Shown in pieces: positions 2,495 through 34,408 of a DNA stretch of 34,408 nucleotides. Each line of letters starts with the position of its first letter. Positions within the stretch are counted from its first letter, which is position 1. The notes beneath the pieces were generated by a model that worked only from the letters and a program-made list of their open reading frames with translations, was not told the origin of the DNA and did not search any database. Position numbers and translations under genes: made by a program. Source of the DNA: an uncultured bacterium (lineage in GTDB: Bacteria > Myxococcota_A > UBA9160 > SMWR01); the NCBI GenBank assembly GCA_937937315.1, contig CALDCK010000331.1, forward strand, positions 1-34,408. The letters run 5' to 3'.

Positions 2495-2535
2495 CATGCG
2501 CCGTCGTCGGCGCCCCGATCGCTCCGCTTGCCGCG

Positions 2536-3327
2536 TCAGTCGCGACGCGCCCGGCGCAGAAGCGAGAAGCCGACGAGCCCCGCGATGATCAGCGAGAACG
2601 ACGCCGGCTCGGGCACCACGTGCGCCCACTCCTCGAATCCGGCCCCCGAGCGCTCGGTGTCGCCGAAGCGCGAGTAGAGGATCACGTAGTCGTCAGGTGA
2701 GACCCCGGCGAAGACCGAGGCCGGCAGGGTCAGCAGCATGTCGCTGACGCCGCTTCCGGGCGCGTTGTTGAAGTCCAGAATGACCACGCTGTCGCTGCCG
2801 GCATCGAGATCGTAGATCAGCGTTCCGAGATCGCTGAGAACGCTCGTATTCTGGCCACCCGTGTCGGAGATGTAGATCTGGAGAGCATCGAGGGACAGGA
2901 GTGACTGACGCTCTCCGGCCGGCTCGTTGATGTCGAGGGCGAAGAGGAAGCTCCCCGCGGTCTGCATGAGATCGCCGAAGCGCAGATCCCGGGTGAAGCC
3001 ACCCGGCGGCGGGACCTCATCGAAGGCCGGATCGGGGTTGTCCGTGTTGTACCCCTCCTCGTTCCTGCTGGCGCGGATCCGCAGGAACGACTGCACCTTA
3101 CCGGTGCCGAAGGGCTGCTGATCGTCGAACTCGAAGAGCGCTCCGTTCACCGTGCCCGAAGATCCCTCTCCGGGAGTCAGGTCGACCATAGTGGCCGACG
3201 CCGATCTCTCTCCGAGGGAGATCGCAGCGGCTGCCATGCACAGGCAGACCCAGAAGGCCCGGCTCCGGATCGTCTTCCGCAGTCTGCACGCACCCCGGCC
3301 ATCTCTGCAATCGGTCTCACTCTGCAC
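2536..3327 (-). CDS. PEP-CTERM sorting-domain surface protein
   Basis: About 263 residues: an N-terminal signal segment (RSRAFWVCLCMAAAAISLG, cleavage probably after SASA), a beta-rich extracellular body with no recognised enzymatic motif, and a classic C-terminal sorting signal (VPEPASFSLIIAGLVGF, then LLRRARRD). PEP-CTERM proteins are secreted by Sec, cleaved or anchored by an exosortase, and often become part of exopolysaccharide/biofilm matrix; no exosortase gene is in this window. The start is set by AGGAG (minus strand, 3339-3335) followed by GTG GTG at 3330/3327; the upstream in-frame ATG at 3414 lacks such a site and would bury the signal peptide. The gene is preceded by a sigma-54 promoter and a terminator-like hairpin, leaving a leader of about 190 bases, which suggests transcriptional control at two levels. 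Confidence 0.9.
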   Translation of the reverse strand: MQSETDCRDGRGACRLRKTIRSRAFWVCLCMAAAAISLGERSASATMVDLTPGEGSSGTVNGALFEFDDQQPFGTGKVQSFLRIRASRNEEGYNTDNPDPAFDEVPPPGGFTRDLRFGDLMQTAGSFLFALDINEPAGERQSLLSLDALQIYISDTGGQNTSVLSDLGTLIYDLDAGSDSVVILDFNNAPGSGVSDMLLTLPASVFAGVSPDDYVILYSRFGDTERSGAGFEEWAHVVPEPASFSLIIAGLVGFSLLRRARRD

Positions 3328-3473
3328 CACGATGCTCCTGTCGAGCCGCAGTGGGACCGTCGCCACCGGAGGGTCTTCGCCGATCGAAGACACACGGGGA
3401 GCCTTGGCCCGCACGCGGGCCCCTTCCCCTCGAACCGGCGCCGGAAGACGCCAACGGAATGCGCGAGAAGCGC

Positions 3474-3513
3474 AAAAAAAAATGGAAGGAGCCGCCCCAA
3501 GGGGGCCCCTTCC
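3474..3513 (-). terminator. Terminator-like hairpin and U9 tract in the PEP-CTERM leader
   Basis: On the minus strand, positions 3513-3484 form a 10-bp stem (GGAAGGGGCC pairing with GGCTCCTTCC, one G-U pair) with a 10-base loop, followed after one A by nine consecutive T (3482-3474). This is the textbook form of a Rho-independent terminator. No minus-strand gene ends here: it lies between the sigma-54 promoter (predicted start near 3516) and the PEP-CTERM start codon, so it would act on that gene's own leader at about +4 to +43. It may be an attenuator, a source of a short RNA, or a 5' stabilising structure. It is the only long A/T run I noticed in the window. Confidence 0.7.
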
Positions 3514-3526
3514 GCCCCTCCAGTGT

Positions 3527-3542
3527 AGCAGGACTCGTGCCA
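3527..3542 (-). promoter_or_regulatory. Sigma-54 (-24/-12) promoter for the PEP-CTERM gene
   Basis: Minus strand reads TGGCACGAGTCCTGCT: a perfect TGGCACG -24 box, exact GG-N10-GC spacing, and CTGCT against TTGCW at -12. The predicted transcription start is near 3516. RpoN with a PrsR-type activator is known to control PEP-CTERM genes in some bacteria, so this fits the gene downstream. Confidence 0.85.
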
Positions 3543-3553
3543 GGAATCGGGAA

Positions 3554-3574
3554 CTAACAATTTCAAGGGGTTAG
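3554..3574. promoter_or_regulatory. Inverted repeat upstream of the sigma-54 promoter
   Basis: CTAAC-N11-GTTAG lies 12 bases upstream of the -24 box and within a locally AT-richer patch (about 3550-3640) that is unlike the surrounding DNA. A short palindrome CTCGCGAG follows about 15 bases further upstream. Either could bind an enhancer-binding protein or a regulator of the divergent DUF4336 gene. Half-sites of five bases are weak evidence. Confidence 0.3.
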
Positions 3575-3686
3575 CGCGGAAGCGGCTCCTCGCGAGAGAA
3601 AAGTTTCGCCGCGGATTGGGCAAAGGTTTTCTCGAATCCGTCGATCGCACCCACTCCCTTGCCGGACCGCATGCGATGATGGCGTC

Positions 3687-4385
3687 GTGCTGAGGGCATT
3701 CGGCGAGGATCTCTGGATCGCTGACGGGCCGCCCGTGCGCTTCCTGGGACAGTTCGACTACCCGACGCGCATGGCGGTCGTACGCCTGACGGACGGCGGT
3801 GTCTGGATGTGGTCCCCCATCGCGTGGAGCGCCGAGCTCTCGGAGGCAGTCGCGGCGATCGGACCGGTGCGGCACCTGGTGGCGCCGAACAAGATCCACC
3901 ACCTCAACCTGGGCCCTTGGGCTGCGGAGCATCCCGAGGCGCGACTCTGGGCGGCTCCGGGCCTCGCGCGGAGGCGCCCCGACCTGACCTTCCACGGCGA
4001 GCTCGCGGACACGCCGGCCCCGGCATGGTCCCAGGACCTCGATCAGCTCGTCTTCCGCGGCAGCGTCTTCATGGACGAGGTCGTCTTCTTCCACCGGGCG
4101 TCCCGCACTGCGCTCGTCTGCGACCTGATCCAACGCTTCGACCCGGCAACCCTCTCGGGCTGGCGCGGTGCCCTCATGCGCCTCGACGGGCTGGTCGGTC
4201 CCGAGGGCAGCACGCCCCGCGAGTGGCGCGCCAGCTTTCTGCGACGCAGCGCCGCCCGGATCGCTCTCCAGCGTGCGTTGGACTGGAGTCCAGAGCGCCT
4301 GGTAATCGCCCACGGCGATCTCCCCCTCGAGTCCGGTCGCGATGCCCTCGCACGCGGGCTGCGCTGGCTAGGTCCCCCCGGTTGA
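3687..4385 (+). CDS. DUF4336 domain-containing protein
   Basis: 232 residues, full length for DUF4336, a family distantly related to metallo-beta-lactamase folds but without an established function. Recognisable features are the opening LWIADGPPVRFLGQFDYPTRMAVVRL, the HLVAPNKIHHLNLGPW segment, and the late IAHGDLP motif, where His/Asp could hold a metal. It starts at GTG 3687 without a clear ribosome site. It is followed after 55 bases by the aldo/keto-reductase-like gene in the same direction, so the two probably form an operon. No signal peptide is visible, so it is likely cytoplasmic. Confidence 0.8.
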   Translation: MLRAFGEDLWIADGPPVRFLGQFDYPTRMAVVRLTDGGVWMWSPIAWSAELSEAVAAIGPVRHLVAPNKIHHLNLGPWAAEHPEARLWAAPGLARRRPDLTFHGELADTPAPAWSQDLDQLVFRGSVFMDEVVFFHRASRTALVCDLIQRFDPATLSGWRGALMRLDGLVGPEGSTPREWRASFLRRSAARIALQRALDWSPERLVIAHGDLPLESGRDALARGLRWLGPPG

Positions 4386-4440
4386 CGCCCCCATCGACAG
4401 CGGGGGACACTGCTCACCGACCGCGAGAGGACGCTCCGTC

Positions 4441-5292
4441 ATGCCCGACTTCCGCACGCCCGTTCCCCTCGGTCAGACCGGCCTCGAGGTGTCGCGGCTC
4501 GGCATCGGCTCGAGCTTCACCGGTGACCCACGCTTCATCGAGGAGGCCGTCGACCAGGGGGTGAACTACCTCTACTGGGGCTCGATCCGACGGCCGGCCT
4601 TCGGCCGTGCCATCCGCCACATCGCGCGACGTAAGCGCGAGAGCGTCGTGCTGACCGTGCAATCCTACTCACGGGTCGCGGCGCTGATGGCGCCCTCCAT
4701 CGAGCTTGCGCTGCGACGCACAGGCGTGGACTACTTCGACTTTCTGCTCCTCGGCATGTGGAACCAGCGGCCGTGGCCCAAGTTGTTGGACGCGGCGCGA
4801 AGCCTGCGCGAGCAGGGCAAGGTGCGCCACCTGATGCTGAGCACCCACAACCGCCCCTCGCTACGAGGCCACTTCGAGGCCTTCGAAGCCGGCGAGAGCC
4901 CCTTCGCCGCCTTCATGCTGCGCTACAACGCAGTCCACCGCGGTGCGGAGAAGGATGTATTCCCCTTCCTGCCGGAGACACGACGGCCGGGCATCGTCAC
5001 CTACACGACCACCCGCTGGGGCCACCTGCTCGACCCGGCGAAGATGCCCCCGGGCGAGACCCCTCCCCGAGCGCGTGACTGCTACCGCTTCGCGCTCTCC
5101 CACCCGGACGTCGACATGGCGCTTTGCGGCCCCGCGAATCGCGAGCAGATGCAGGAGGCGCTACGCGCCCTCGACGCAGGCCCCCTCGACCCGGAAGAGA
5201 CGAAGCGCATGGAACGGATCGGTGCACACATCTATCGGCACAACAAGCCGAAGTTCGCCGAGGGGGGCGACGCGAAGGGCACCGCCGTCTGA
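4441..5292 (+). CDS. Aldo/keto reductase-fold protein with a changed catalytic tetrad
   Basis: 283 residues. The AKR (beta/alpha)8 signature opens the protein: VPLGQTGLEVSRLGIGSS, then VDQGVNYLY, DYFDFLLLG and REQGKVRHLMLS. Aligned by eye with normal AKRs, the usual catalytic Asp is Tyr45 (NYLYWG in place of NFFDTA), the Tyr is Arg50, the Lys is Gln74 (VVLTVQS) and the His is Gly105 (LLLGMW). All four tetrad positions therefore appear altered, which argues against ordinary NADPH carbonyl reduction; a different reaction or a binding role is possible. The C-terminal part (PDVDMALCGPANREQMQEAL) keeps the family's cofactor-side pattern. The ATG follows GAGAGG. It is probably co-transcribed with the DUF4336 gene upstream. 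Confidence 0.85.
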   Translation: MPDFRTPVPLGQTGLEVSRLGIGSSFTGDPRFIEEAVDQGVNYLYWGSIRRPAFGRAIRHIARRKRESVVLTVQSYSRVAALMAPSIELALRRTGVDYFDFLLLGMWNQRPWPKLLDAARSLREQGKVRHLMLSTHNRPSLRGHFEAFEAGESPFAAFMLRYNAVHRGAEKDVFPFLPETRRPGIVTYTTTRWGHLLDPAKMPPGETPPRARDCYRFALSHPDVDMALCGPANREQMQEALRALDAGPLDPEETKRMERIGAHIYRHNKPKFAEGGDAKGTAV

Positions 5293-6578: not shown

Positions 6579-6834
6579 GTCACCCCTCTCTTGCCCCGGT
6601 CCGGGGCCTCCGGTCCGGCCCGCTCTCCGTGATCCCCGGCCGTTGGCGGACCGGCGGCCAATCCCGCAGTGAGCCCGCCCCCGGAAGCTCGGCGCGTCGC
6701 GACTCCTCTCGAACTTCGCAGCTCGCACCATACCATCTCGAGCGCGGCCGAATCGTCTCGCTCTCCAACAGCACTTCTCGCCGCGAACTCCACCCGCTCC
6801 GAGGTCGACGCGGTCTCGCGTGGCGTGGGGCCGG

Positions 6835-8574
6835 TCAGCCGGACTCACCAGGCGTCGGCGCGGGTTTTCTCGGAAGGATCGGCACGTAGCGCGGGAACCA
6901 CATCGACTCGCGCACGACTCCCTCCACCTCGGCGTCGGGCACCGGACGGCCGAGCCTGCTCTCGCCGGCGTAGCGGATGACCGCGGCGGCTACCTTCGCA
7001 CTCGCCTCGCGTAGATCCGATGGGTCCGGGTAGAGCGCTCCCAGCAGCAGGCGCTCGTCGTCGACGCTGTCGGCGAGAGCCCTCGCCGCGGCGTAGAAGA
7101 CCTCGTCGGGCACCTCCTGCATCTGCGAAAGGATCACACCGAGGCCCACTCCGGGAAAGATGAAGACGTTGTTCCCCTGTCCGATCACGTGCCGGACGCC
7201 GTCGTGCACGACGTCCGCGAAGGGGCTCCCGGTCGCGACGATGGCGCGACCGCCGGTCCACTCGATCGCCTCCTTGGGCGAGCACTCGGACTTGCTATTC
7301 GGATTCGAGAGCGGCATCACGATCGGCCGTTCCACGTGCCTTGCCATCTCCTCGATCATCGTCCTGTGGAACATTCCCGGCGTCGCCGTGGCGCCGATCA
7401 GGACGGTGGGCTTCACCCGAGCGATCACCTGCTCGGGAGTGGGGTCGTCGATCCCATCGAGGCCGTAGTGGCCGAGCACGGCCCGACTCGCCACCAGGCC
7501 CTCCTTGTAGGGCTCACGTACGGGAATGCCCTCCCGCAGCAGACCCTTCCGGTCGAACAGGAGGTGCGCGCGGGCGATCACCTCTTCCTCGACCCCCTCG
7601 GCCCGCATGGAGGCGCGGGCGAGCTGGCAGATCCCCGTGCACGCCTCGCCGGCGCCCATATAGACGAAGCGCTGGTCTCGGAGCGACTGGCCGGTGATGC
7701 GCAGCCCCGCCAGGACGCCAGCCACCGCCACGGCCGCGGTGCCCTGGATGTCGTCGTTGAAGCAGGGAATCCGCCGGCGGTACCGGGCGAGGATCTCGAA
7801 GGCGTGGTCCTTGTGGAAGTCCTCCCACTGCACGACGGCCCTCGGGAACACCTCGCGCACCCCCTCCACGAAGGCCTCGATGAAGGCGTCGTACCCCGCA
7901 CCGCGCAGACGGCGTCCGGGGTGCCCCATGTAGAGCGGATCGTCGAGGAGCTCCGGGTTGTCGGTACCAACGTCGAGGCTGATCGGCAGGACCTTCGAGG
8001 GATGGATGCCTGCACCGGCGATGTAGAGCGCCAACTTGCCGATGGGAATGCCCATGCCGCCCGCACCCTGATCGCCCAGACCGAGGATGCGCTCGTTGTC
8101 GGTCACGACGATGAGGCGGATGTCCTGAAGGGGATACTCCCGCAGACGCTCTGGAATCCGGTCGATGTCCGCCGGGGTGAGCCAGATGCCGCGTACGCTG
8201 CGTTGGATGTGGCTGTACTTCTGGCACGCGAGACCGACGGTGGGCGTGTACACGATCGGCATGAGCTCGGCGAGATGCTCCACCAACACGCGATGGAAGA
8301 GGACCTCGTTGCGATCCTGGAGGACCGAGAGCCCGATGTACTTCTCCAGGGCGTCGGGCTTCGCCCGCAGGTGCTCCATCTCGAGCTCTACCTGCTGCTC
8401 GATGGAGAGGATCCGCGGGGGCAGGAGGGCGCTCAGTCCGAGGCGATCGCGCTCTTCCTGGGAGTAGGCGAGCCCCTTGTTGGTCGCGGGATTCTTCAGC
8501 AGCCAGAAACCCCGCTTGCTCGTTCGAATGACGTCTGGGCCCCGAACCACGCGCGGATCCGTGTCGCCCGGCAC
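6835..8574 (-). CDS. maeA: NAD-dependent malic enzyme
   Basis: 579 residues, close to the 565 of the large bacterial NAD-malic enzyme. It converts malate to pyruvate and CO2 with NAD(P)H formation in the cytoplasm. Visible signatures: PIVYTPTVG (catalytic Tyr), LIVVTDNERILGLGDQGAGGMGI (catalytic Lys follows in PIGKL), the metal site in QWEDFHKDHAF and CFNDDIQGTA, and the nucleotide fold in YMGAGEACTGI. The GTG start at 8574 lies one base after the upstream gene's TAG and has GGGAG eight bases before it; a start at 8613 would overlap that gene by 38 bases. It forms a two-gene operon with the BCAM0308-family gene and so probably answers to the sigma-54 promoter at 9071-9086. Terminal residues show nothing abnormal. 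Confidence 0.95.
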   Translation of the reverse strand: MPGDTDPRVVRGPDVIRTSKRGFWLLKNPATNKGLAYSQEERDRLGLSALLPPRILSIEQQVELEMEHLRAKPDALEKYIGLSVLQDRNEVLFHRVLVEHLAELMPIVYTPTVGLACQKYSHIQRSVRGIWLTPADIDRIPERLREYPLQDIRLIVVTDNERILGLGDQGAGGMGIPIGKLALYIAGAGIHPSKVLPISLDVGTDNPELLDDPLYMGHPGRRLRGAGYDAFIEAFVEGVREVFPRAVVQWEDFHKDHAFEILARYRRRIPCFNDDIQGTAAVAVAGVLAGLRITGQSLRDQRFVYMGAGEACTGICQLARASMRAEGVEEEVIARAHLLFDRKGLLREGIPVREPYKEGLVASRAVLGHYGLDGIDDPTPEQVIARVKPTVLIGATATPGMFHRTMIEEMARHVERPIVMPLSNPNSKSECSPKEAIEWTGGRAIVATGSPFADVVHDGVRHVIGQGNNVFIFPGVGLGVILSQMQEVPDEVFYAAARALADSVDDERLLLGALYPDPSDLREASAKVAAAVIRYAGESRLGRPVPDAEVEGVVRESMWFPRYVPILPRKPAPTPGESG

Positions 8575-23871: not shown

Positions 23872-24261
23872 ATGGCCGAAGACCTGCGAGCCGAAGCCCG
23901 ACCCCATCCGGATGAAGTGATCGAGCGCCGCGACACGGGACTCCGGATCCTGCTCACACTCCTGTTCCTGCTGATCGCGGCGGTGATCGAGAGCGTCCTC
24001 GCCCTGATCGTGATCTTCGAGCTGCTCTGGGCCCTCGTCACGAAGGAGGTGGCGAGCCCGAGAGTCCGCGACCTGGCCAACCGGATGATCGCCTACTACT
24101 ACCGGGTCGGGCGGTACCTCACCTACAACGATTCGCAGGTGCCGTTTCCCTTCTCGGACTTTCCCGGTCCCGTCGAGCCCGGCGGCTGGCGGGGCGGCAG
24201 CCCGGAAGCCGACGCCCTTGGCCTCGCCAACCTCGAGGATTCCCGCAGGCCCGGCGTCTAG
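23872..24261 (+). CDS. DUF4389 membrane protein
   Basis: 129 residues. A charged N-terminus (MAEDLRAEARPHPDEVIERRD) is followed by one long or two tight hydrophobic segments (LRILLTLLFLLIAAVIESVLALIVIFELLWALV) and the conserved stretch VRDLANRMIAYYYRVGRYLTYNDSQVPFPFSDFP, which defines DUF4389. Function is unknown; the protein is an inner-membrane one. ATG at 23872 follows AGGAGGACACC, a strong ribosome site. Transcription probably depends on the sigma-54 promoter at 23807-23822. The stop TAG overlaps the stop TAG of the giant gene on the other strand within one CTAG (24258-24261). Confidence 0.88.
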   Translation: MAEDLRAEARPHPDEVIERRDTGLRILLTLLFLLIAAVIESVLALIVIFELLWALVTKEVASPRVRDLANRMIAYYYRVGRYLTYNDSQVPFPFSDFPGPVEPGGWRGGSPEADALGLANLEDSRRPGV

Positions 24262-27200
24262 CCCTCCCGACTTCCCGGGCGAGGCGAACCAGAACGCCTC
24301 GCCCGACGTCGCGCCAGGGCTCCGAGGCCGATGAGTCCGGCCAGCAGGCCCTCGGCCCCCGGCTCGGGCAGGCGGATCGTGGTGACCGAGGCCGAGCCCT
24401 CGGCCCCGTGACTGTCGATCGAGGTCGCGGTCACCTCGTGGGTCCCGATCGAGAGCGTGGACGTGGTGAAGCTCACTCCGGCACCGATCGCGCCGTCCAG
24501 GTTCGAGCTCCAGAGGAGGCCCCCGCTCAGATCACCGTCCTCGGCGTCGAGCGCGCTGCCGGTGAAGGTCAGGGGCGTGCCCGACTCGGACGACGAGCCC
24601 TCCGCGGGCGCATCGATCGTCACCTGGGGTGCGGTATTCGCGTTCACGGTCAGCCCGATCGTGGCGGAGCCCGGCGCACCGTGGGCGTCTACCACCGAGG
24701 CCGTGATCACGTGGGGACCCACCGACAGCACCGAGGTCGAGAAGGATACGCCGCTGCCGATCGGTCCATCGACATCCGAGCTCCAGGCCAGACTCGCGCT
24801 GAGGTCGCCGTCCTCGGCGTCCGTCGCCGAGCCTGTGAACGTGAGCGAGTCCGTCGCGATCGAGGTCGATCCATCGCCCGGGGCGCTGATCGTCACCGCC
24901 GGTGCCGTGTTCGCATTCACTGTCACCGTGATCGCTGCCGAGCCCGGTGCACCGTGGGAATCGATCACCGAGGCCGTGATCACGTGAGCTCCCACCGACA
25001 GCGCCGACGACGCGAAGGATGCGCCCGCGCCGATGGCGCCGTCCAGACTCGAGACCCAGGAGAGGCTGCCGCTCAGATCCCCATCCTGGAGATCGCTTGC
25101 ACTGCCCGAGAAGGTGACCGGATCCGTTGCAACGAACACCGAGCCGTCCGCGGGTGCAGAGATCGAGACGCTGGGCGCCGTGTTCGGGGCGACCGTGATC
25201 GTGATCGATGCAGAGCCCGGGGCCCCGTGGCCATCGACGACCGAGGCCGTGATCTCGTGGGCTCCGATGGACAGGGTCGAGAGGGAGAACGAGGCGCCGC
25301 TTCCGATCGGGCCGTCGACGTCCGAGGTCCAGAAAAGGCTCCCCCCGAGATCCCCGTCCTCGTCGTCCGTCGCCGAGGCCGCGAAGCTCAGGGAATCGGT
25401 CTCGATCGACGCGGCGCCGTCTCCGGGCGAGGTAATCGTCACCACCGGCGCTGCGTTGGCATTCACCGTGACGGTGATCGACGTCGAGCCCGGCGCCCCA
25501 TGGCTGTCGGTCACCGACGCGGTGATGACATGGGTGCCGATCGAGAGGGCCGCGAAGGGGAAGCTCGCACCGCTGCCGATCGGGCCGTCCACATCCGACT
25601 CCCAGGCGAGGCCCGCTGAGAGGTCGCCGTCCTCGGTGTCGGTCGCCCCAGCGCTGAAGGTCAGGGAGTCCGTGGCCGTGGCCGTGGACCCGTCCAGGGG
25701 AGACGAGATCGTCACCTGGGGCGCCGTGTTCGCGTTCACCGTGACGCTCACCGTCGCGGCGGCGCTGTTGCCGTCCCCATCGGTCGCCGTCGCCGTGATC
25801 GTGTGGGTCCCTACCGAAAGGTTGGAGATCGAGAAGCCGGCCCCGCTACCGATCGCGCCATCCAGGTCCGACGTCCACAGCAGGCTGGCCGTCACATCGC
25901 CGTCCTGAGCGTCGATGGCCGTACCCGCGAAGCCCAGCAGCTCCGCCTCGATCGCCGTCGCCCCGTCCGTCGGCGCCGTGATCGTGACGTCCGGCCGGAT
26001 CGGCGTGAAGTCGACGTGAAGGATGGGAGCGTCCTGGGGCGACCCGTCGTGGGCCGTTGCGGTGCGGTTCGTTGCCAGATCGAGGGCGCTGATGATGAGG
26101 GTCATCGCGGCCCCTGGCGTCCAGCCGGCTCGATCCACCACCTCCTGGATCACGCCAGAGAGGTCCGAGGTCCTTTGACGGGCGCTGGTCTCACCGATGT
26201 CGTTCCAATCCGGCGGCGACCAACCGGCCCAGGACGAGGTGCGCACCCGCGAGGAGATGTCGCCGAGCCCGGTGGTGAGCGGAGGCGAGTCGTCGGAGGC
26301 CTCGGCTTCGATCATCAGCGAGGCCGGCCCCGGATCTTCCTCATCCGCCTCGAACTGGAGATACGCGCGATGGATCGTGGCCCCCCGGGAGATCGGCAAG
26401 CCCCGGAAGCGCAGCCCCACCTCGACCAGGTCCCCGCTGTTCAGGACCATGTCGAGGTCGGAGCTGGTGAGAGTGACCTCGCCAGTCTCTTCCGTCTCCT
26501 CGGCATCGTCGGCGTCGCTCTCGATCTGGATGTCGAGCGGGCTTCCCACCGACGCACAGACCCCGCCCGTACCGTCGTCGAGACAGGCGTCGCAGACGTC
26601 ACCGACTCCATCTCCGTCTCCGTCGTCCTGGGTCGGATTCCAGAGCGCCGGACAATTGTCGGCGCAAACCCCGTCGCCGTCCGGATCGACATCGATCGTC
26701 GCGCTGGCCGGGCACACGTCGCAGACATCGCCGGTGCCGTCGGCGTCGACGTCCTCCTGACCCGGGTTGAAGATGGCCGGACAGTTGTCAGCCCCATCAC
26801 ACGCGCCATCGAGATCCGGATCGAGGCCCGGAGCACAGGCGTTCACCGTGAAGGTGATCGACGCGGAGCCGAGTGAGCCATAGCTGTCGGTCACCGAAGC
26901 CGTGATCGCGTGGGTCCCGGGGGAGAGGGTCGCGAGGGCGAAGGTCGCGCCTCCACCGATCGAACCGTCCAGGTCGGAGACCCAGGCGAGGCTCTCGCTG
27001 AGGTCGCCGTCCTCCGTATCCGGCGCCGAGCCGGTGAAGGTGACCGAGGCCCCCTCCCCTGTGCTCGAGCCGTTCGCGGGCGAGGAGATCGTGACCGCCG
27101 GCGCCACGTTCGCATTCACCGTGACCGAGATTCCGGAGAAGCCCGTCGCACCGTGGCTGTCGGTCACCGAGGCCGAGATGACGTGGGTGCCGACCGAGAG

Positions 27201-30200
27201 GGTCGAGAGAGAGAAGCCCGCTCCGGCACCGATCGGCCCGTCGAGGTCGGAGCTCCAGGCCAGTGCTGCGCTGAGATCACCGTCCTCGCCATCCAATGCC
27301 GTCGCACTGAACTCGATCGGGTCGGTCTCGGTAACGGCGAGGCCATCGACCGGGGACGTGATCGCCACCACCGGCGTGCCGTTCGCACTCACGCTGACCC
27401 GGACCGCAGCGACGCCCGGGTTGCTGGCGCTGTCAGTCGCCGTCGCAGTGATCGTATGGGTTCCGACAGAGAGGGTCGAGAGGGAGAAGCCCGCTCCGCT
27501 GCCGATTGCACCCTCGAGGTTCGAGGTCCAGAGAAGGCTCGCCGTGACGTCGCCGTCTTCGACGTCGCTCGCCGTCGCGGCAAAGACCAGCGGGTCCGTC
27601 TCGACGGCGCTCGAGCCATCAGCGGGTGCGGTGATGACGACACTCGGCGCGCCGCCCGCGTTCACGGTCATGGTGATCCCAGCCGAGGCCGGCGCACCGT
27701 GGGTATCGCTCACCGAGGCCGTGATGACGTGGGTGCCCAGGGAGAGCGTGGAGAGAGAGAAGCTCGCCCCACTTCCGATCGGGCCGTCCAGACTCGAGAC
27801 CCAGGCCAGGCCTGGGCCGAGATCTCCGTCCTGGGCGTCCGGCGCCGAAGCCGCGAAGAGAACCGATGCGCCCTGGACGGAGGTCGAGCCACCGGCCGGG
27901 GCCGTGATCGTCACGTCCGGAGGCGTATTGACGTTCACCGTCACTCCGATGACGGCGGAGCCCGGCGCACCGTGGCTGTCGCTCACTGACGCGGTGATCG
28001 TGTGAAGCCCCGGCGAGAGGGTGGAGAGAGAGAAGAACCCACCACTCCCCATCGGGCCGTCCAGGCTCGACGTCCACGAGAGGCTCGCGGCGAGGTCACC
28101 ATCCTGCCCATCCGACGCTGTGGCGCTGAAGGCGAGAGAGTCCGTCTCGGTCGAGGTCGTGCCGTCGGCGGGTGAGGTGATGGTCACCACCGGCGCCGTG
28201 TTCGCGTTCACCGTCACCGAGATCGAGGCCGCGCCCGGCGCTCCGTGGGTGTCCGTCACCGAGGCGGTGATCGTGTGGATCCCCACGGAGAGCGTCGTCA
28301 GCGGGAAGGTCGTCCCGGTTCCGATCGCACCATCGATACTCGAGGTCCAGGACAGGCTTCCGCCGAGATCACCGTCCTGTCCATCCGTTGCCGTCGCAGT
28401 GAAGGTGAGGGAGTCCGTCTCGGTCGAGGTCGTGCCGTCGGCGGGCGCGGTGATGGTCACCACCGGCGCGGTGTTGGGGTTCACCGTCACCGAGATCGTG
28501 GCCTGGCCCGGCGCGCCGTGGCTATCGGTCACCGAGGCCGTGATCGTGTGGCTACCCACCGAGAGCGTCGTGAGCGGGAACGTCGCCCCGTTCCCGATCG
28601 CTCCGTCCAGGTTCGAGACCCAGGACAGACTGCCAGCGAGATCGCCGTCCTCGAGATCCGCCGCCGTGGCGGAGAACGCGAGGGACTCGGTCTCGATCGA
28701 GCTCGACCCGTCCGCGGGAGACGTGATGGTCACCACCGGGGGGGTATTGGCGGCGATCGTGATCGCGACCGTGGCGCTCCCGGACACCCCGTGGCTGTCC
28801 GTCACCGCCGCCGTGATCACATGGCTTCCCACGGAAAGGGTCGAGAGCGAGAATCCTGCCCCGCTGCCGATCGCTCCGTCCAGGTCCGAGGTCCAGGACA
28901 GGCTGCCGCTGAGATCGCCATCCAGGTCGTCCGTGGCAGATCCGCCGAAGCTGATGGGGTCCGTCTCGGTACCACTCGCCCCCTCGGTCGGGGATGCGAT
29001 CGTCACCACCGGCGCGGAGTTCGGATCCACCACGATCGTGATCGAAGCGGAGCCCAACGCTCCGTGGGCATCGGTCACGGCCGCAGTAATCGTATGGCTA
29101 CCGATCGAGAGGGTGGAGAGGGAGAAGCTCCCGCCACCGCCGAGGGCACCATCGATGTTCGACGTCCAGGCCAGACCCGCCGTCAGGTCTCCATCCTCAT
29201 CATCTGCTGCCGAAGCCGCGAAGCCCACCGGATCGGTCTCGATAGAGCTGGACCCATCAGCCGGCGCGGTGATCGTCACCACGGGTGCCGCGTTCGGATC
29301 GACCGTCACCGTGATTGCCGCTGACCCGGGCGCCCCGTGGCTGTCGGTCACGGCTGCCGTAATCGTATGGCTCCCCACCGACAGGCTCGAGAGGGCGAAG
29401 CTGGCACCGGTCCCGATCGCGCCGTCCAGGCTGGACGTCCAGGAGAGGCTCGCAGCGAGGTCGCCGTCCGGATCATCCGTGGCGCTGGCCTCGAAGGTGA
29501 TCGAGTCGGTCTCGGTCGAGGTCGCGCCATCCAGCGGCGAGACGATGGACACCACCGGCGGCGCGTTCGCGCTGACTGTGACGCCGATCGTCGCGGCACC
29601 GGGCGCGCCATGGCTGTCGCTCACCGAGGCCGTGATGACGTGTCCGCCCAGCGAGAGGCTTGAGACCGAGAAGGAGGCTCCCGTGCCGATCGGGCCGTCG
29701 ATGTCGGAGGCCCAGGACAGGCTCGCGCTCAGGTCTCCGTCCTCGCCGTCCGAGGCGGACCCGCTGAAGGTCAGCGAGTCGGTCTCGACCGAGGTCGACC
29801 CGTCCGCGGGCGTGACGATCGACACGACCGGAGGGGTGTTGACATTCACCGTGACCGAGATCGACGCGGATCCGGGCGCTCCCCCGCCGTCGCTGAGGGA
29901 CGCCGTGATGAGGTGTGTCCCCGGAGAGAGGGTCGTGAGCGAGAAGCTCGCGCCGCTGCCGATGGCTCCGTCGAGACTCGACGTCCAGGCGAGACTCGAC
30001 GAGAGGTCGCCTTCCTCGGTGTCCGTCGCGGACCCGGTGAAGGTCACCGAGTCGGTCTCCGTCGAGATCGCACCATCTGCCGGCGCGCTGATCGCCACCA
30101 CCGGCGGCGAGTTGACGCCCACCGTGACCGTCACGTCGGCCGTTCCCGCGGCGCCGTGGCTGTCCGTCACCGAGGCGGTGATGACGTGGGTGCCCTCGGG

Positions 30201-32918
30201 CAGGTTGGTGAGCTCAAAGGTCCCCCCGGTTCCGACCAGGATGCTCGGCGGCAGGGTCCACGAGATCGATGCAGTGAGGTCACCGTCCTCGTCGTCGCTT
30301 GCGCTTCCCGTGAAGGTGATCGACTCGGTATCCGTGAACACGGACCCGCTCGTGGGAGCCGTGATCACGACCACGGGCTGCGCGTTCGGGTTCACGACCA
30401 CCGAGATCCCGGCGGAGCCCTCGTTCCCATCGCCGTCCACGGCGGTGGCGACGATCCCATGAGTCCCCACCGAGAGGCTCGAGAGGGAGAAGCCCGCACC
30501 GCTGCCGATCGGTCCGTCGAGATCCGACACCCAGATCAGGCTCGCCGTCACGTCCCCGTCCTGGGCATCCGTCGCGGAGCCCGCAAACGTCACCGGGTCC
30601 GACTCGACAGAGCTCGATCCTTCTGCAGGAGATGTGATCTCCACCACGGGGCGAATCGGCGTGTACTCGACGTGGAGACGCGGCGCATTTGCGATCGACC
30701 CGTCTCGGGTGTCGGCCACCCGCGTCGACGCCAGGTCGAGAGCGCTGATGAGCATCGTCATCGCGGAGCCCGACGTCCAGCCCGGGCGGTCTACGATCTC
30801 CTGAACCACCTCGGACAGATCCGAGGTGCGCTGCCGCACTCCCGCGTCTCCCACCGCGAGCCAGTCGAGGGGCGACCAGCCTGCCCAGGCCGCGGTGCGC
30901 GTTCGGATCGACAGATCGAAAGAATCGGTGGTCAGTGGCGGGGAATCATCGGACGCCTCCGCCTCGATGATCAACGACGCCGGGCCCGAGTTCGCCTCGT
31001 CCGCCACGAACTGGAGATACGCCCGGTGCACTACCGAGCCCTGAGGGATGTCGATGCCCTGGAATCGCAGTCCCGCCATCTGGAGCTTCGCGTTGTCGTT
31101 CACCAGGTCGAGGTCGGAGCTCGTGATCGAGATCACTCCACTGGGAACCTTCTCCTCGCTGTCGTCCTGATCTTCGGAGATCGGCGCGTCGTAGACGTTC
31201 CCGAGGGGCGCACAGCTTCCTCCGGTGCCGTCGAGTTCGCAGGGATCGCAGACGTCTCCGACGCCGTCGCCGTCCGCATCCTCCTGGCCGGCGTTCCACA
31301 CGGCCGGGCAGTTATCCGCGCAGACTCCGTCGCCGTCGGGGTCCGAGTCGAGGGTCGCGCTCGCGGGACAGATGTCACAGGCATCGCCGAACCCGTCCCC
31401 GTCGACGTCCTCCTGGCCCGGGTCGAAGTCGATCGGACAGATGTCGATCCAATCGCAGACCCCGTCGACGTCTCCATCGAAGCCGGCGGGGCAGGCGCCG
31501 CATTGGAGGTCCGCCGCATCGACGGCTCCGTCGCAGTTGTTGTCGACCGTGTCTCCGCAGTTCTCTGCGGCCACCGGATCCGGGCTGGTCGCGGCATCCG
31601 CGTCGTCGCAGTCCTCTCCAGCGTCATAGCCATCGCCGTCCACATCCGGATCGCAATCGTCGCCGAAGCCATCGCCGTCGGTGTCGACCTGACCCGGGTT
31701 CACGAGTGCGGGACAGTTGTCTACGTCATCGCTCGCACCATCGCCGTCTGCGTCTCCGCCGGAGGTCCCCCGCGCCAGCACGAACACATCGGAGTCGGAG
31801 ACGGAAGCTCCATCGTTCGCCTCGAGCCGCAGCTGATAGGTCCCCGGGAAGCTGAAGGTCCCCGTCGTCGAGAGCGCCGAGGGGCTTCCGAGGCCCACGG
31901 GGCCCGGACCGGCGATGATCGACCAGGCGGTGGTCAAGGTCGCGGCCGGAACGCCATCATCGCTGGCCGAGCCCTCGAGGGGCGAAGGAATCCCGACATC
32001 GGTGATGAAGTCCGGGCCGGCGTCTACGCAGGGCGGACGATCGAGAGGCGTCGAGCCGGCGGGCCACGGGTCCCGCTCCACCACGAAGGTATTCGCGGGA
32101 TTCACGTCCATGGTCACGGTCACCCGAATGGGGGGCTCGAGCAGGGTGCCTCGCTCGAGCTGGATGCGGGTGACGTTGGGCTCGAGGAAGGGGTGATTGA
32201 GCTTCCAGTCGCGATTGTCCCCATGGATGTAGGCCAGGGGCTTTCCGAAGGTCGCTGCGGCGGTGCGAAACCCGCTCTCGAAGGGCTCGACCAGGGGCGA
32301 TTCGTGGGAGAAGACGACCGCAGCGCGAACGACACCGGCCTTCGCCAGAAGCTGCTGCGAAACCCAATCCGCGTCGTCCTGAAGCCGGGCCACCTGCTCG
32401 ACCGGGTCCTGGTTGATCCCGCCTACATGGTGGATGCCGACGAAGAGCACACCGTTCTGGACGAAGACGAAGTTCTCGGGCCGGGAGGCCTGGAACTCGA
32501 CCGTCGGCGCGCCACAGAAGTTCTCTTCGAAGCGCAGGAAGTAGGCGTTCCAGCGACTCCAGCCGAGGACCTTGTCGTCACAGTCGGCCCACTCGTTGTC
32601 TCCGGGGACCACGAAGGTGGGAACGGCGAGAGCGCCCAGGATGCTCGCGGCCGCTGCATAGTGCGCCTCTGCGCAACCCAGCTCGTCGGGCTTGAGATCC
32701 CCGAGATGGACCAGGAAATCGGAGGAGCTGTAGAGGTTGTGGTCCGCCACGTGCTGGACGAGGTCGGATTCCTCGGCGCCGCTGTAGGGCACATCGCTGA
32801 CCACGGAGAAGTCGATCGGACTCCCCTGGCTCCAGGCTGGTGCCGCGCTGGCGAGGGCCACGAGGGCGGAAAAGAGAGAGAGATGGACGAATCGGGCCGA
32901 TCGGTTGGTGAATCGCAA
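24258..32918 (-). CDS. Giant exported PEP-CTERM protein: phosphoesterase-like head, calcium-binding repeats and 20 Ig-like repeats
   Basis: 2886 residues in one unbroken frame. Signal peptide 1-31 (cleavage after AWSQ). Residues 32-265: metallophosphoesterase-like domain (HLGDLKP 71-77, VPGDNEW 104-110, FSHES 203-207, IHGDNR 231-236). 296-385: PKD-like. 387-562: thrombospondin type 3 Ca-binding repeats (DxDxDG) around a MopE-like motif (DCDDADAATSPD then DTVDNNCDGAVD, about 436-467). 575-752: a beta-rich module (HRAYLQF, VVQEIVDRPGW). 756-2027: 14 Ig-like repeats. 2028-2307: second TSP3 plus module. 2308-2850: six more repeats. C-terminus: LPEPGAEGLLAGLIGLGALARRRARR, a PEP-CTERM anchor. Probably a long calcium-stiffened surface stalk with an enzyme or binding head. 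The TTG start at 32918 is used because GAGG precedes it and the signal peptide begins there. Antisense frames are open but are shadows. Confidence 0.92.
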   Translation of the reverse strand: MRFTNRSARFVHLSLFSALVALASAAPAWSQGSPIDFSVVSDVPYSGAEESDLVQHVADHNLYSSSDFLVHLGDLKPDELGCAEAHYAAAASILGALAVPTFVVPGDNEWADCDDKVLGWSRWNAYFLRFEENFCGAPTVEFQASRPENFVFVQNGVLFVGIHHVGGINQDPVEQVARLQDDADWVSQQLLAKAGVVRAAVVFSHESPLVEPFESGFRTAAATFGKPLAYIHGDNRDWKLNHPFLEPNVTRIQLERGTLLEPPIRVTVTMDVNPANTFVVERDPWPAGSTPLDRPPCVDAGPDFITDVGIPSPLEGSASDDGVPAATLTTAWSIIAGPGPVGLGSPSALSTTGTFSFPGTYQLRLEANDGASVSDSDVFVLARGTSGGDADGDGASDDVDNCPALVNPGQVDTDGDGFGDDCDPDVDGDGYDAGEDCDDADAATSPDPVAAENCGDTVDNNCDGAVDAADLQCGACPAGFDGDVDGVCDWIDICPIDFDPGQEDVDGDGFGDACDICPASATLDSDPDGDGVCADNCPAVWNAGQEDADGDGVGDVCDPCELDGTGGSCAPLGNVYDAPISEDQDDSEEKVPSGVISITSSDLDLVNDNAKLQMAGLRFQGIDIPQGSVVHRAYLQFVADEANSGPASLIIEAEASDDSPPLTTDSFDLSIRTRTAAWAGWSPLDWLAVGDAGVRQRTSDLSEVVQEIVDRPGWTSGSAMTMLISALDLASTRVADTRDGSIANAPRLHVEYTPIRPVVEITSPAEGSSSVESDPVTFAGSATDAQDGDVTASLIWVSDLDGPIGSGAGFSLSSLSVGTHGIVATAVDGDGNEGSAGISVVVNPNAQPVVVITAPTSGSVFTDTESITFTGSASDDEDGDLTASISWTLPPSILVGTGGTFELTNLPEGTHVITASVTDSHGAAGTADVTVTVGVNSPPVVAISAPADGAISTETDSVTFTGSATDTEEGDLSSSLAWTSSLDGAIGSGASFSLTTLSPGTHLITASLSDGGGAPGSASISVTVNVNTPPVVSIVTPADGSTSVETDSLTFSGSASDGEDGDLSASLSWASDIDGPIGTGASFSVSSLSLGGHVITASVSDSHGAPGAATIGVTVSANAPPVVSIVSPLDGATSTETDSITFEASATDDPDGDLAASLSWTSSLDGAIGTGASFALSSLSVGSHTITAAVTDSHGAPGSAAITVTVDPNAAPVVTITAPADGSSSIETDPVGFAASAADDEDGDLTAGLAWTSNIDGALGGGGSFSLSTLSIGSHTITAAVTDAHGALGSASITIVVDPNSAPVVTIASPTEGASGTETDPISFGGSATDDLDGDLSGSLSWTSDLDGAIGSGAGFSLSTLSVGSHVITAAVTDSHGVSGSATVAITIAANTPPVVTITSPADGSSSIETESLAFSATAADLEDGDLAGSLSWVSNLDGAIGNGATFPLTTLSVGSHTITASVTDSHGAPGQATISVTVNPNTAPVVTITAPADGTTSTETDSLTFTATATDGQDGDLGGSLSWTSSIDGAIGTGTTFPLTTLSVGIHTITASVTDTHGAPGAASISVTVNANTAPVVTITSPADGTTSTETDSLAFSATASDGQDGDLAASLSWTSSLDGPMGSGGFFSLSTLSPGLHTITASVSDSHGAPGSAVIGVTVNVNTPPDVTITAPAGGSTSVQGASVLFAASAPDAQDGDLGPGLAWVSSLDGPIGSGASFSLSTLSLGTHVITASVSDTHGAPASAGITMTVNAGGAPSVVITAPADGSSAVETDPLVFAATASDVEDGDVTASLLWTSNLEGAIGSGAGFSLSTLSVGTHTITATATDSASNPGVAAVRVSVSANGTPVVAITSPVDGLAVTETDPIEFSATALDGEDGDLSAALAWSSDLDGPIGAGAGFSLSTLSVGTHVISASVTDSHGATGFSGISVTVNANVAPAVTISSPANGSSTGEGASVTFTGSAPDTEDGDLSESLAWVSDLDGSIGGGATFALATLSPGTHAITASVTDSYGSLGSASITFTVNACAPGLDPDLDGACDGADNCPAIFNPGQEDVDADGTGDVCDVCPASATIDVDPDGDGVCADNCPALWNPTQDDGDGDGVGDVCDACLDDGTGGVCASVGSPLDIQIESDADDAEETEETGEVTLTSSDLDMVLNSGDLVEVGLRFRGLPISRGATIHRAYLQFEADEEDPGPASLMIEAEASDDSPPLTTGLGDISSRVRTSSWAGWSPPDWNDIGETSARQRTSDLSGVIQEVVDRAGWTPGAAMTLIISALDLATNRTATAHDGSPQDAPILHVDFTPIRPDVTITAPTDGATAIEAELLGFAGTAIDAQDGDVTASLLWTSDLDGAIGSGAGFSISNLSVGTHTITATATDGDGNSAAATVSVTVNANTAPQVTISSPLDGSTATATDSLTFSAGATDTEDGDLSAGLAWESDVDGPIGSGASFPFAALSIGTHVITASVTDSHGAPGSTSITVTVNANAAPVVTITSPGDGAASIETDSLSFAASATDDEDGDLGGSLFWTSDVDGPIGSGASFSLSTLSIGAHEITASVVDGHGAPGSASITITVAPNTAPSVSISAPADGSVFVATDPVTFSGSASDLQDGDLSGSLSWVSSLDGAIGAGASFASSALSVGAHVITASVIDSHGAPGSAAITVTVNANTAPAVTISAPGDGSTSIATDSLTFTGSATDAEDGDLSASLAWSSDVDGPIGSGVSFSTSVLSVGPHVITASVVDAHGAPGSATIGLTVNANTAPQVTIDAPAEGSSSESGTPLTFTGSALDAEDGDLSGGLLWSSNLDGAIGAGVSFTTSTLSIGTHEVTATSIDSHGAEGSASVTTIRLPEPGAEGLLAGLIGLGALARRRARRSGSPRPGSREG
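24372..25997 (-). repeat. Ig-like repeat block B (6 copies of about 273 bp)
   Basis: Six in-frame tandem units of about 91 codons ending just before the PEP-CTERM tail. Each reads about PxVTIxxPxDGS, then DxEDGDLSxSLxW, SxLDGxIGxGxSF, LSxGxHxITAS and VTVNAN. The first unit has DGDGN in place of DSHGA. Confidence 0.9.
25998..26837 (-). repeat. Second copy of the TSP3 plus AYLQF-module cassette
   Basis: Encodes residues about 2028-2307: TSP3 repeats (NCPAIFNPGQEDVDADGTGD) then the module with HRAYLQFEADEEDPGP, DDSPPLTT, WAGWSPPDW, RQRTSDLSGVIQEVVDR. It matches 30654-31448 and 33801-34408 in order and motif, so it is a duplicated cassette. Confidence 0.85.
26838..30653 (-). repeat. Ig-like repeat block A (14 copies of about 273 bp)
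   Basis: Fourteen in-frame units (1272 codons, mean 90.9) with strict 273-base register. Unit 2 (30383-30111) is the outlier: TLPPSILVGTGGTFELTNL replaces the SxLDGxIG segment. Units 9 (28472-28200) and 10 (28199-27927) are nearly identical at DNA level over one stretch. Confidence 0.92.
30654..31448 (-). repeat. First copy of the TSP3 plus AYLQF-module cassette
   Basis: Encodes residues about 491-755: TSP3 repeats (DIDICP type, VDGDGFGDACD), then HRAYLQFVADEANSGP, DDSPPLTT, WAGWSPLDW, RQRTSDLSEVVQEIVDRPGW. It is the parent-like copy next to the MopE-type motif. Confidence 0.85.
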
Positions 32919-33156: not shown

Positions 33157-34408
33157 CTAGCGATTCGCTCTCGAAGTCCACCGCGCGCGCCGATGTCGGG
33201 CCAGCGCTCCGAGGCCCAGCAGCCCCGCCAGCAGGCCCTCGCTCCCGGGCTCGGGCAGGCGAATGGTCGTTATCGCAGCGGATCCCTCGAGGCCCTGGGC
33301 ATCGAGGGCGATCGCGGTCACGACGTGGGTTCCCTGCGGAAGCGTGGAGATCGTGAAGTCCGTACCGGTCCCGATCGGTCCGACCAGGTTCGAGCTCCAG
33401 CTGAGGGTGGGCCCGAGATCACCGTCCTCGGCGTCGCTGGCACTGCCCGCGAAGGCAAGGGGAGCCCCGACCAGCGAGCTGGAGCCGTTGAGCGGCGCCG
33501 TGATCGTCACCTGGGGCGCCGTGTTGGGATCCACTGTGACGCCGACGTTTCCAGATCCGACGTTTCCGTCCCCATCGATCGCGGTCGCCGTGATCGTATG
33601 AGCGCCCACGGAGAGCGTCGAGAGCGCGAATCCAGCGCCGGTCCCGATCGGACCGTCGAGATCCGACGTCCACACGAGGTTCTCCGTCACGTCGCCCTCC
33701 TGGGGATCGACCGCAGTCCCCGCGAAGACCATCGAGGTTCCCTCGATCCAGATCGAGCCATCGGCGGGTGCACCGATCGTCACGACCGGCTCGGGGCGAG
33801 TGAACTCCACGTGCAGAGACGGCGCACCGGGCCCTGCGACGTCCGTGGACTGGGCGGTGCGGTTCGACGCCGCATCCAGGGCGCTCACGAGGATCGTGAA
33901 CGCCGATCCCGAGGTCCAGCCGGGACGGTCCACGATCTCCTGAACGACGTCGGAGAGATCCGAGCTGCGCTGCCTCGGACCCTCCTCGCCGATCTGGAGC
34001 CACTCCGGCGGTGACCAGCCCGCCCAGGCGGCGCTTCGCGGTCGGCTCGAGAGATCGCCTGGCGCGGAGGTCAGCGGCGGTGAGTCGTCGGAGGATTCGG
34101 CCTCGAGGATGAGTGAGGCCGGCCCCGTGTCCAGCTCGTCGGCGCGAAGCTGGAGGTACGCCCGGTGAATGATCGCCCCCGGCGGAATCGCGAGACCCGG
34201 GAAGCGCATCCCGGCGATCACCAACTCGCCACCGCTCAGCGTGAGGTCGAGGTCGAGACTGACCAGAGTGACGACCCCCGTCTGCACCTTCTCTTCCGCG
34301 TCGTCACCGGAATCCACGAGGGTAGTATCCAGCTCGTCACCGAGCGGCGTGCAGACCCCTCCCGTGCCATCCACCGCGCATACGTCGCACGCATCCCCCA
34401 CGCCGTCG
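33157..34408 (-). CDS. Paralogous PEP-CTERM protein with TSP3, AYLQF module and Ig-like repeats (5' partial)
   Basis: The last 416 codons of a gene whose start lies beyond the window. From the 5' side: a TSP3 end (DGVGDACDVC), the AYLQF module (HRAYLQLRADELDTGP, DDSPPLTSAPG, WAGWSPPEW, RQRSSDLSDVVQEIVDRPGW; about 34350-33801), two Ig-like repeats (the first with DGDGNVGSG), and the anchor LPEPGSEGLLAGLLGLGALARHRRARW. The tail is nearly the same as in the downstream giant protein, but only two repeats lie between module and anchor, against six. Likely a surface protein exported and sorted the same way. Its head domain cannot be seen. The same-direction order and shared parts point to tandem duplication. 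Confidence 0.9.
   Translation of the reverse strand, partial: DGVGDACDVCAVDGTGGVCTPLGDELDTTLVDSGDDAEEKVQTGVVTLVSLDLDLTLSGGELVIAGMRFPGLAIPPGAIIHRAYLQLRADELDTGPASLILEAESSDDSPPLTSAPGDLSSRPRSAAWAGWSPPEWLQIGEEGPRQRSSDLSDVVQEIVDRPGWTSGSAFTILVSALDAASNRTAQSTDVAGPGAPSLHVEFTRPEPVVTIGAPADGSIWIEGTSMVFAGTAVDPQEGDVTENLVWTSDLDGPIGTGAGFALSTLSVGAHTITATAIDGDGNVGSGNVGVTVDPNTAPQVTITAPLNGSSSLVGAPLAFAGSASDAEDGDLGPTLSWSSNLVGPIGTGTDFTISTLPQGTHVVTAIALDAQGLEGSAAITTIRLPEPGSEGLLAGLLGLGALARHRRARWTSRANR
33240..33800 (-). repeat. Two Ig-like repeats of the paralogue
   Basis: Two in-frame units of about 91-93 codons of the same type as blocks A and B. The first (RPEPVVTIGAPADGS, AIDGDGNVG) matches the first unit after the module in the other two cassettes; the second runs into TTIRLPEPG. 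Confidence 0.85.
33801..34408 (-). repeat. Third copy of the TSP3 plus AYLQF-module cassette (partial)
   Basis: The same order and motifs as at 30654-31448 and 25998-26837; the upstream TSP3 part is cut by the window edge. Confidence 0.8.

Follow-up and report, generated by a model that had tools for sequence, protein, structure and literature searches.

The window analyzed here, which is the whole 34,408-nucleotide stretch of DNA, carries on its minus strand a gene for a PEP-CTERM protein, the product of which matches PF07589 at 22.4 bits (cut-off 20.7). The features upstream of this gene, and its divergent neighbour, are as follows.

3542-3527, minus strand: sigma-54 -24/-12 element TGGCACGAGTCCTGCT, located by the strict pattern in a strict genome scan
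3513-3484 (+4 to +33), minus strand: terminator-shaped hairpin GGAAGGGGCCCCCTTGGGGCGGCTCCTTCC, from RNA folding and a terminator score
3482-3474 (+35 to +43), minus strand: T9 tract TTTTTTTTT, read from the sequence
3395-3430, minus strand: second leader hairpin region, from the leader fold, with no U tract after it
2536-3327, minus strand: PEP-CTERM protein gene, with a GTG start at 3327 and a Shine-Dalgarno sequence AGGAG at 3339-3335
3687-4385, plus strand: divergent DUF4336 gene (PF14234), from a profile match

Because the DUF4336 neighbour is divergent, the hairpin ends no upstream gene, and its interpretation as a gene-end terminator was ruled out on this ground. Elsewhere on the minus strand of the window, an open frame of 2886 codons (24258-32918) follows an ORF (33157-34401) that has Big_7/HYR domains and ends in a weak PEP-CTERM-like tail; together, these probably constitute a large surface protein region.

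The promoter element conforms to TGGCAC-N5-(T/C)TGC, with its GG and GC 10 bases apart, and the gene combines a PEP-CTERM tail with this upstream sigma-54 site. Counting from the GC at -13/-12, transcription is predicted to start at 3516, giving a leader of 189 nt to the GTG at 3327, with about 150 bases between the T9 tract and the start codon. The first-pass annotation had placed the start, the hairpin and the T9 tract at these same positions, and correctly so. A promoter scan revealed no sigma-70-like promoter between 2500 and 5000. When the proteins of 89 genomes of the class were searched for relatives of the PEP-CTERM protein, a single clear homologue emerged (42% identity, E 5e-27), from another genus of the family (G006), with a sigma-54 site TGGCACGGGAATTGCT directly upstream, a ribosome site GGGAAGGTGG and an ATG at approximately +15. 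Since this homologue retains the sigma-54 promoter, that of the PEP-CTERM gene is probably real. A pilA-like pilin gene elsewhere in this genome is also preceded by the strict sigma-54 pattern and, together with the strict site itself and its retention in the only clear homologue, this supports the earlier proposal that the PEP-CTERM gene is under sigma-54 control. In other bacteria, pilA is well known as sigma-54 dependent.

RpoN control of a PEP-CTERM gene has been established experimentally in Aquincola, where the pepA start was mapped to TGGCAC/CTGCTT (PMC9850573). The TGGCAC/CTGC -24/-12 element is common to RpoN-dependent PEP-CTERM genes of this kind (Aquincola pepA; PrsK-PrsR) and to the locus described here. 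However, the Aquincola gene has an upstream region of roughly 85 nt and a terminator after pepA, with none mentioned in its leader (PMC9850573), whereas the putative terminator discussed here lies within the leader. In this genome, which is 84.5% complete, no protein scored above the NCBIfam cut-off for PrsR (best 439 versus 502.6 bits); the PrsR-type response-regulator model yielded 12 genome matches at E≤1e-40, all under that cut-off.

Three bases, GGC, lie between the predicted start and the stem. The hairpin itself occupies 30 bases, its arms and loop reading GGAAGGGGCC CCC TTG GGG c GGCTCCTTCC, and a lone A (3483) separates it from the T9 tract. Folded in isolation, the 43-nt RNA forms one hairpin with a minimum free energy of -24.5 kcal/mol (z -2.59; 3 of 200 dinucleotide shuffles were equally good), which remains intact when a 217-nt leader is folded. 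The d'Aubenton-Carafa formula assigns it a terminator score of 34, where values above 0 are terminator-like. Intrinsic terminators pair a GC-rich hairpin with a U tract 0-2 nt further on, as is the case here, and the terminator shape and position proposed earlier are supported by the fold, the score and the T9 tract alike. The stem does have defects, namely a bulged C and the A ahead of the U tract, and a simple terminator scanner did not call the hairpin at 3513-3484, an omission probably explained by the bulge. No Rfam family matched the window at its gathering score, the best weak match being suhB with 19 of 41 bits. Within the leader, the 11-mer GGAAGGGGCCC occurs twice on the minus strand (3513-3503 and 3427-3417), each time as the 5' arm of a hairpin; a direct repeat of equal length arises in about 1% of shuffles. 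A mobile or repeated element was rejected, the region matching only itself in this genome. We also considered whether slippage on the T9 tract could fuse a TTG ORF (TTG at 3500, SD-like GGAAGGGG) to the PEP-CTERM gene, into whose frame one extra T puts that ORF, and rejected this reading because the fused product would be without a sensible N-terminal signal peptide.

A terminator-shaped hairpin at a sigma-54 start is unusual for this genome, which has a GC content of 68-70% and very few T runs. A sample of 963 kb out of its 4.26 Mb, taken in stretches partly chosen for sigma-54 sites, holds on both strands together 19 runs of T5, three of T6, one of T7 and one of T9, the tract at 3482-3474 being the only run longer than seven. 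The same sample contains 20 hairpins with T-rich tails scoring above 15; most of the tails are short and of the TTTC type, and among these hairpins only the hairpin at 3513-3484 has a run of more than six T. Setting one to two runs against 21 x 31 positions, for the 21 strict sigma-54 sites of the sample, post hoc arithmetic puts the chance of a run of at least seven T at this distance from a sigma-54 site at approximately 0.0003-0.0007. Across the whole 4.26-Mb genome, this strict site alone has T6 at that distance (reversed-pattern control, 0). A comparison with the leaders of other PEP-CTERM genes, suggested in the first-pass annotation, located a sigma-54-like site at one of 29 loci, namely this one, in stretches that may end short of the promoter for long genes; a leader shared across a PEP-CTERM regulon was rejected on this basis.

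Comparison with relatives further narrows the distribution of the hairpin. None follows the sigma-54 promoter of the homologue in G006, and the hairpin is probably specific to its lineage. GGAAGG occupies +4 to +9 in both leaders, serving as the ribosome site in the homologue and as part of the 5' arm of the stem here; as a conjecture, the stem may have grown around an ancestral ribosome site. When genomes of the order were screened for strict promoters with T6 downstream, a stem not being required, a strong hairpin appeared only at this site and on contig 15 of a genome from another family (G039; JAGSPS010000267.1; L026/L092). The latter combines a TGGCACGGCGGTTGCT sigma-54 site with a hairpin CGGGAAGG..CCTTCCCG (stem arms also given as CGGGAAGGGGACCGC..GCGGTCGGCCTTCCCG) starting at +6, a T7 tract and a score of 47. 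The coding sequence beyond that leader ends with a tail of MYXO-CTERM/PEP-CTERM-like type (18.7 bits to TIGR03382, for which the cut-off is 15.85). The gene itself (L026:819-1347, plus strand) contains two apparent frameshifts, its signal peptide being encoded in one frame and its tail in another, and seems to be a frameshifted pseudogene or an assembly error. A same-strand ORF ends about 180 bases upstream of the G039 hairpin, which could be an ordinary gene-end terminator. Both stems contain GGAAGGGG and CCTTCC, a likeness that 7.8% of shuffles match equally well and that is not significant alone; we thus claim no homology between the two hairpins. No convincing common motif for an upstream activator site emerged among this promoter, that of the homologue and the G039 case.

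Wider searches yielded little more. Convincing cases of the layout number two in 90 genomes of the class, and relaxing the promoter pattern across the class gave no clear excess over a reversed control. In a sample of the phylum, sigma-54 sites with T6 occurred at about twice the frequency of the reversed control, with strong hairpins mostly absent. Among approximately 85,000 GTDB species genomes, the combination of a GGAAGG/CCTTCC hairpin with a sigma-54 site produced ten matches, of which only the G039 contig (L092) came from a GC-rich Deltaproteobacterial genome; the remainder, mostly from lower-GC Clostridia and similar, were read as chance.

The explanation we consider reasonably probable is an intrinsic terminator close to the sigma-54 promoter of the PEP-CTERM gene, at which most RNA would end at around 42 nt while readthrough feeds the gene. 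An enhancer-binding protein would fire the promoter, and the stem would form almost immediately on the nascent RNA. With the polymerase at U7-U8 (+41/+42), the base of the stem would lie 8-9 nt behind, which is the geometry of intrinsic termination; the majority of transcripts would stop there, and the minority reading through would continue into the structured 189-nt leader and on to the GTG. We infer both the termination itself and its strength from the sequence, as well as a role in which a surface protein is throttled to a small fraction of the promoter output. Counted against this explanation are the absence of the hairpin from the homologue, the rarity of the layout, and the bulge and additional A of the stem.

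Whether such a terminator could be regulated is constrained by its position. An attenuator would require upstream RNA able to pair with the 5' arm of the terminator, but transcription is predicted to start at 3516 and the stem at 3513. Because just three bases precede the stem, no antiterminator fold can compete, and RNA transcribed beyond the U tract, such as the second hairpin with its copy of GGAAGGGGCCC, appears too late to do so. The geometry thus excludes attenuation of the classical kind, in which an alternative RNA fold competes; of the earlier suggestion of attenuation stacked on RpoN control, the RpoN component alone is supported. In the absence of such a fold, readthrough would be either a fixed fraction or dependent on a protein that acts on the stem or on the polymerase; any control would require such a protein or a modified RNA polymerase. 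Control by an RNA- or polymerase-binding factor that passes the sigma-54 polymerase on a signal, such that expression needs two conditions, strikes us as unlikely. Two-layer control does have a precedent in nitrate assimilation, where nitrogen-regulated (Ntr) initiation of nas operons is combined with a leader terminator governed by ANTAR proteins such as NasR (PMC5424462, PMC3369936), and the repetition of the 5' arm of the first hairpin in the second could be taken in its favour. In Klebsiella nasF/NasR and Paracoccus nasA/NasT, as predicted here, initiation is under Ntr/nitrogen-type control and a terminator lies in the leader, ahead of the first gene. However, the control elements of known leaders lie upstream of the terminator, the P1/P2 hairpins of nasF and nasA preceding it, whereas here the terminator comes first, from +4. 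ANTAR leaders carry P1/P2 hairpins with A1 and G4 in their loops and P2 overlapping the terminator; none of this is seen here, where the loop is a 3-nt UUG and 3 nt precede the stem, and, as noted, no Rfam family reached its gathering score. In a narrower form, a factor acting on early polymerase would overcome the +4 terminator with no alternative fold, placing an exosortase substrate under two-key control, which we regard as very improbable.

The 42-nt hairpin RNA might instead be the functional sigma-54 product, readthrough being secondary. Sigma-54-driven, self-terminating hairpin RNAs seem to be present in this genome (C272, C434; see below), and Myxococcus Pxr, also self-terminating, is apparently transcribed from a sigma-54 promoter (PMC5568312). 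Pxr, however, is a stand-alone RNA of approximately 108 nt with three stem-loops, whereas the RNA here would be of about 42 nt within an mRNA leader, nearly all of it stem or U tract with no obvious seed, and its sequence is conserved in one partial match only, the homologue having no hairpin. We view a small-RNA gene as quite unlikely. A rather improbable alternative is that the hairpin does not terminate and instead stabilizes the mRNA: decay that depends on the 5' end of an mRNA can be blocked by a hairpin at its very tip, but this would leave a T9 unexplained in a genome nearly devoid of T runs. We are similarly doubtful that the structure is a non-functional product of chance or drift and that a different promoter, situated downstream of 3474, drives the gene. 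The homologue without a hairpin and the scarcity of relatives sharing the layout are compatible with drift, while the post hoc chance (<0.001), the fold z of -2.59 and the lack of a sigma-70-like promoter in 2500-5000 argue against it. On balance, a fixed or passive throttle is favoured over both regulated readthrough and a functional small RNA.

Should the hairpin act as a terminator, it would be an unusually early one for a sigma-54 transcript, too early for the textbook antiterminator fold, and would add a second layer of control to a PEP-CTERM (exosortase) surface protein. It would also offer a test of how polymerase passes a stop while near its enhancer-driven promoter. The exact layout, in which a strong terminator begins at +4 on a PEP-CTERM transcript under sigma-54 control, did not turn up in a limited search of open-access papers. 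If the hairpin does no more than throttle expression or serve as a 5' cap hairpin, it would be a minor curiosity.

Several other candidate sigma-54-driven RNAs were encountered in the course of this analysis. A probable sigma-54-driven small RNA occurs in three copies: L130:12384-12294 (minus strand; C272) and L212:3061-3151 (plus strand; C434) in this genome (G000), and L171:5346-5437 (plus strand; C266) in G003. Each has a strict sigma-54 site, a hairpin GCCCGGGCCGGC-TGCCCCTCC-C..G-AGCCGGCCCGGGC and a U-rich tail; the upper stem shows compensatory changes, an anti-Shine-Dalgarno-like UGCCCCUCC bulge is exposed, and there was no Rfam match. In C272 and G003, a homocysteine S-methyltransferase gene lies immediately upstream of the RNA. 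A candidate sigma-54-driven non-coding RNA (L132:6356-6575, plus strand; C342 of this genome) combines a strict sigma-54 site with a strong terminator hairpin about 190 nt further on; no convincing gene separates the two, and an RNase D-like gene on the minus strand (6601-7827) is convergent with this RNA. Finally, a large genome of the phylum (G372) contains at L071 and L085 (approximately 1501-1580) what looks like a pair of paralogous sigma-54-driven small RNAs, each with a strict sigma-54 site, a CCTNCCCCCCCAGG-loop hairpin and a T6/T7 tract.
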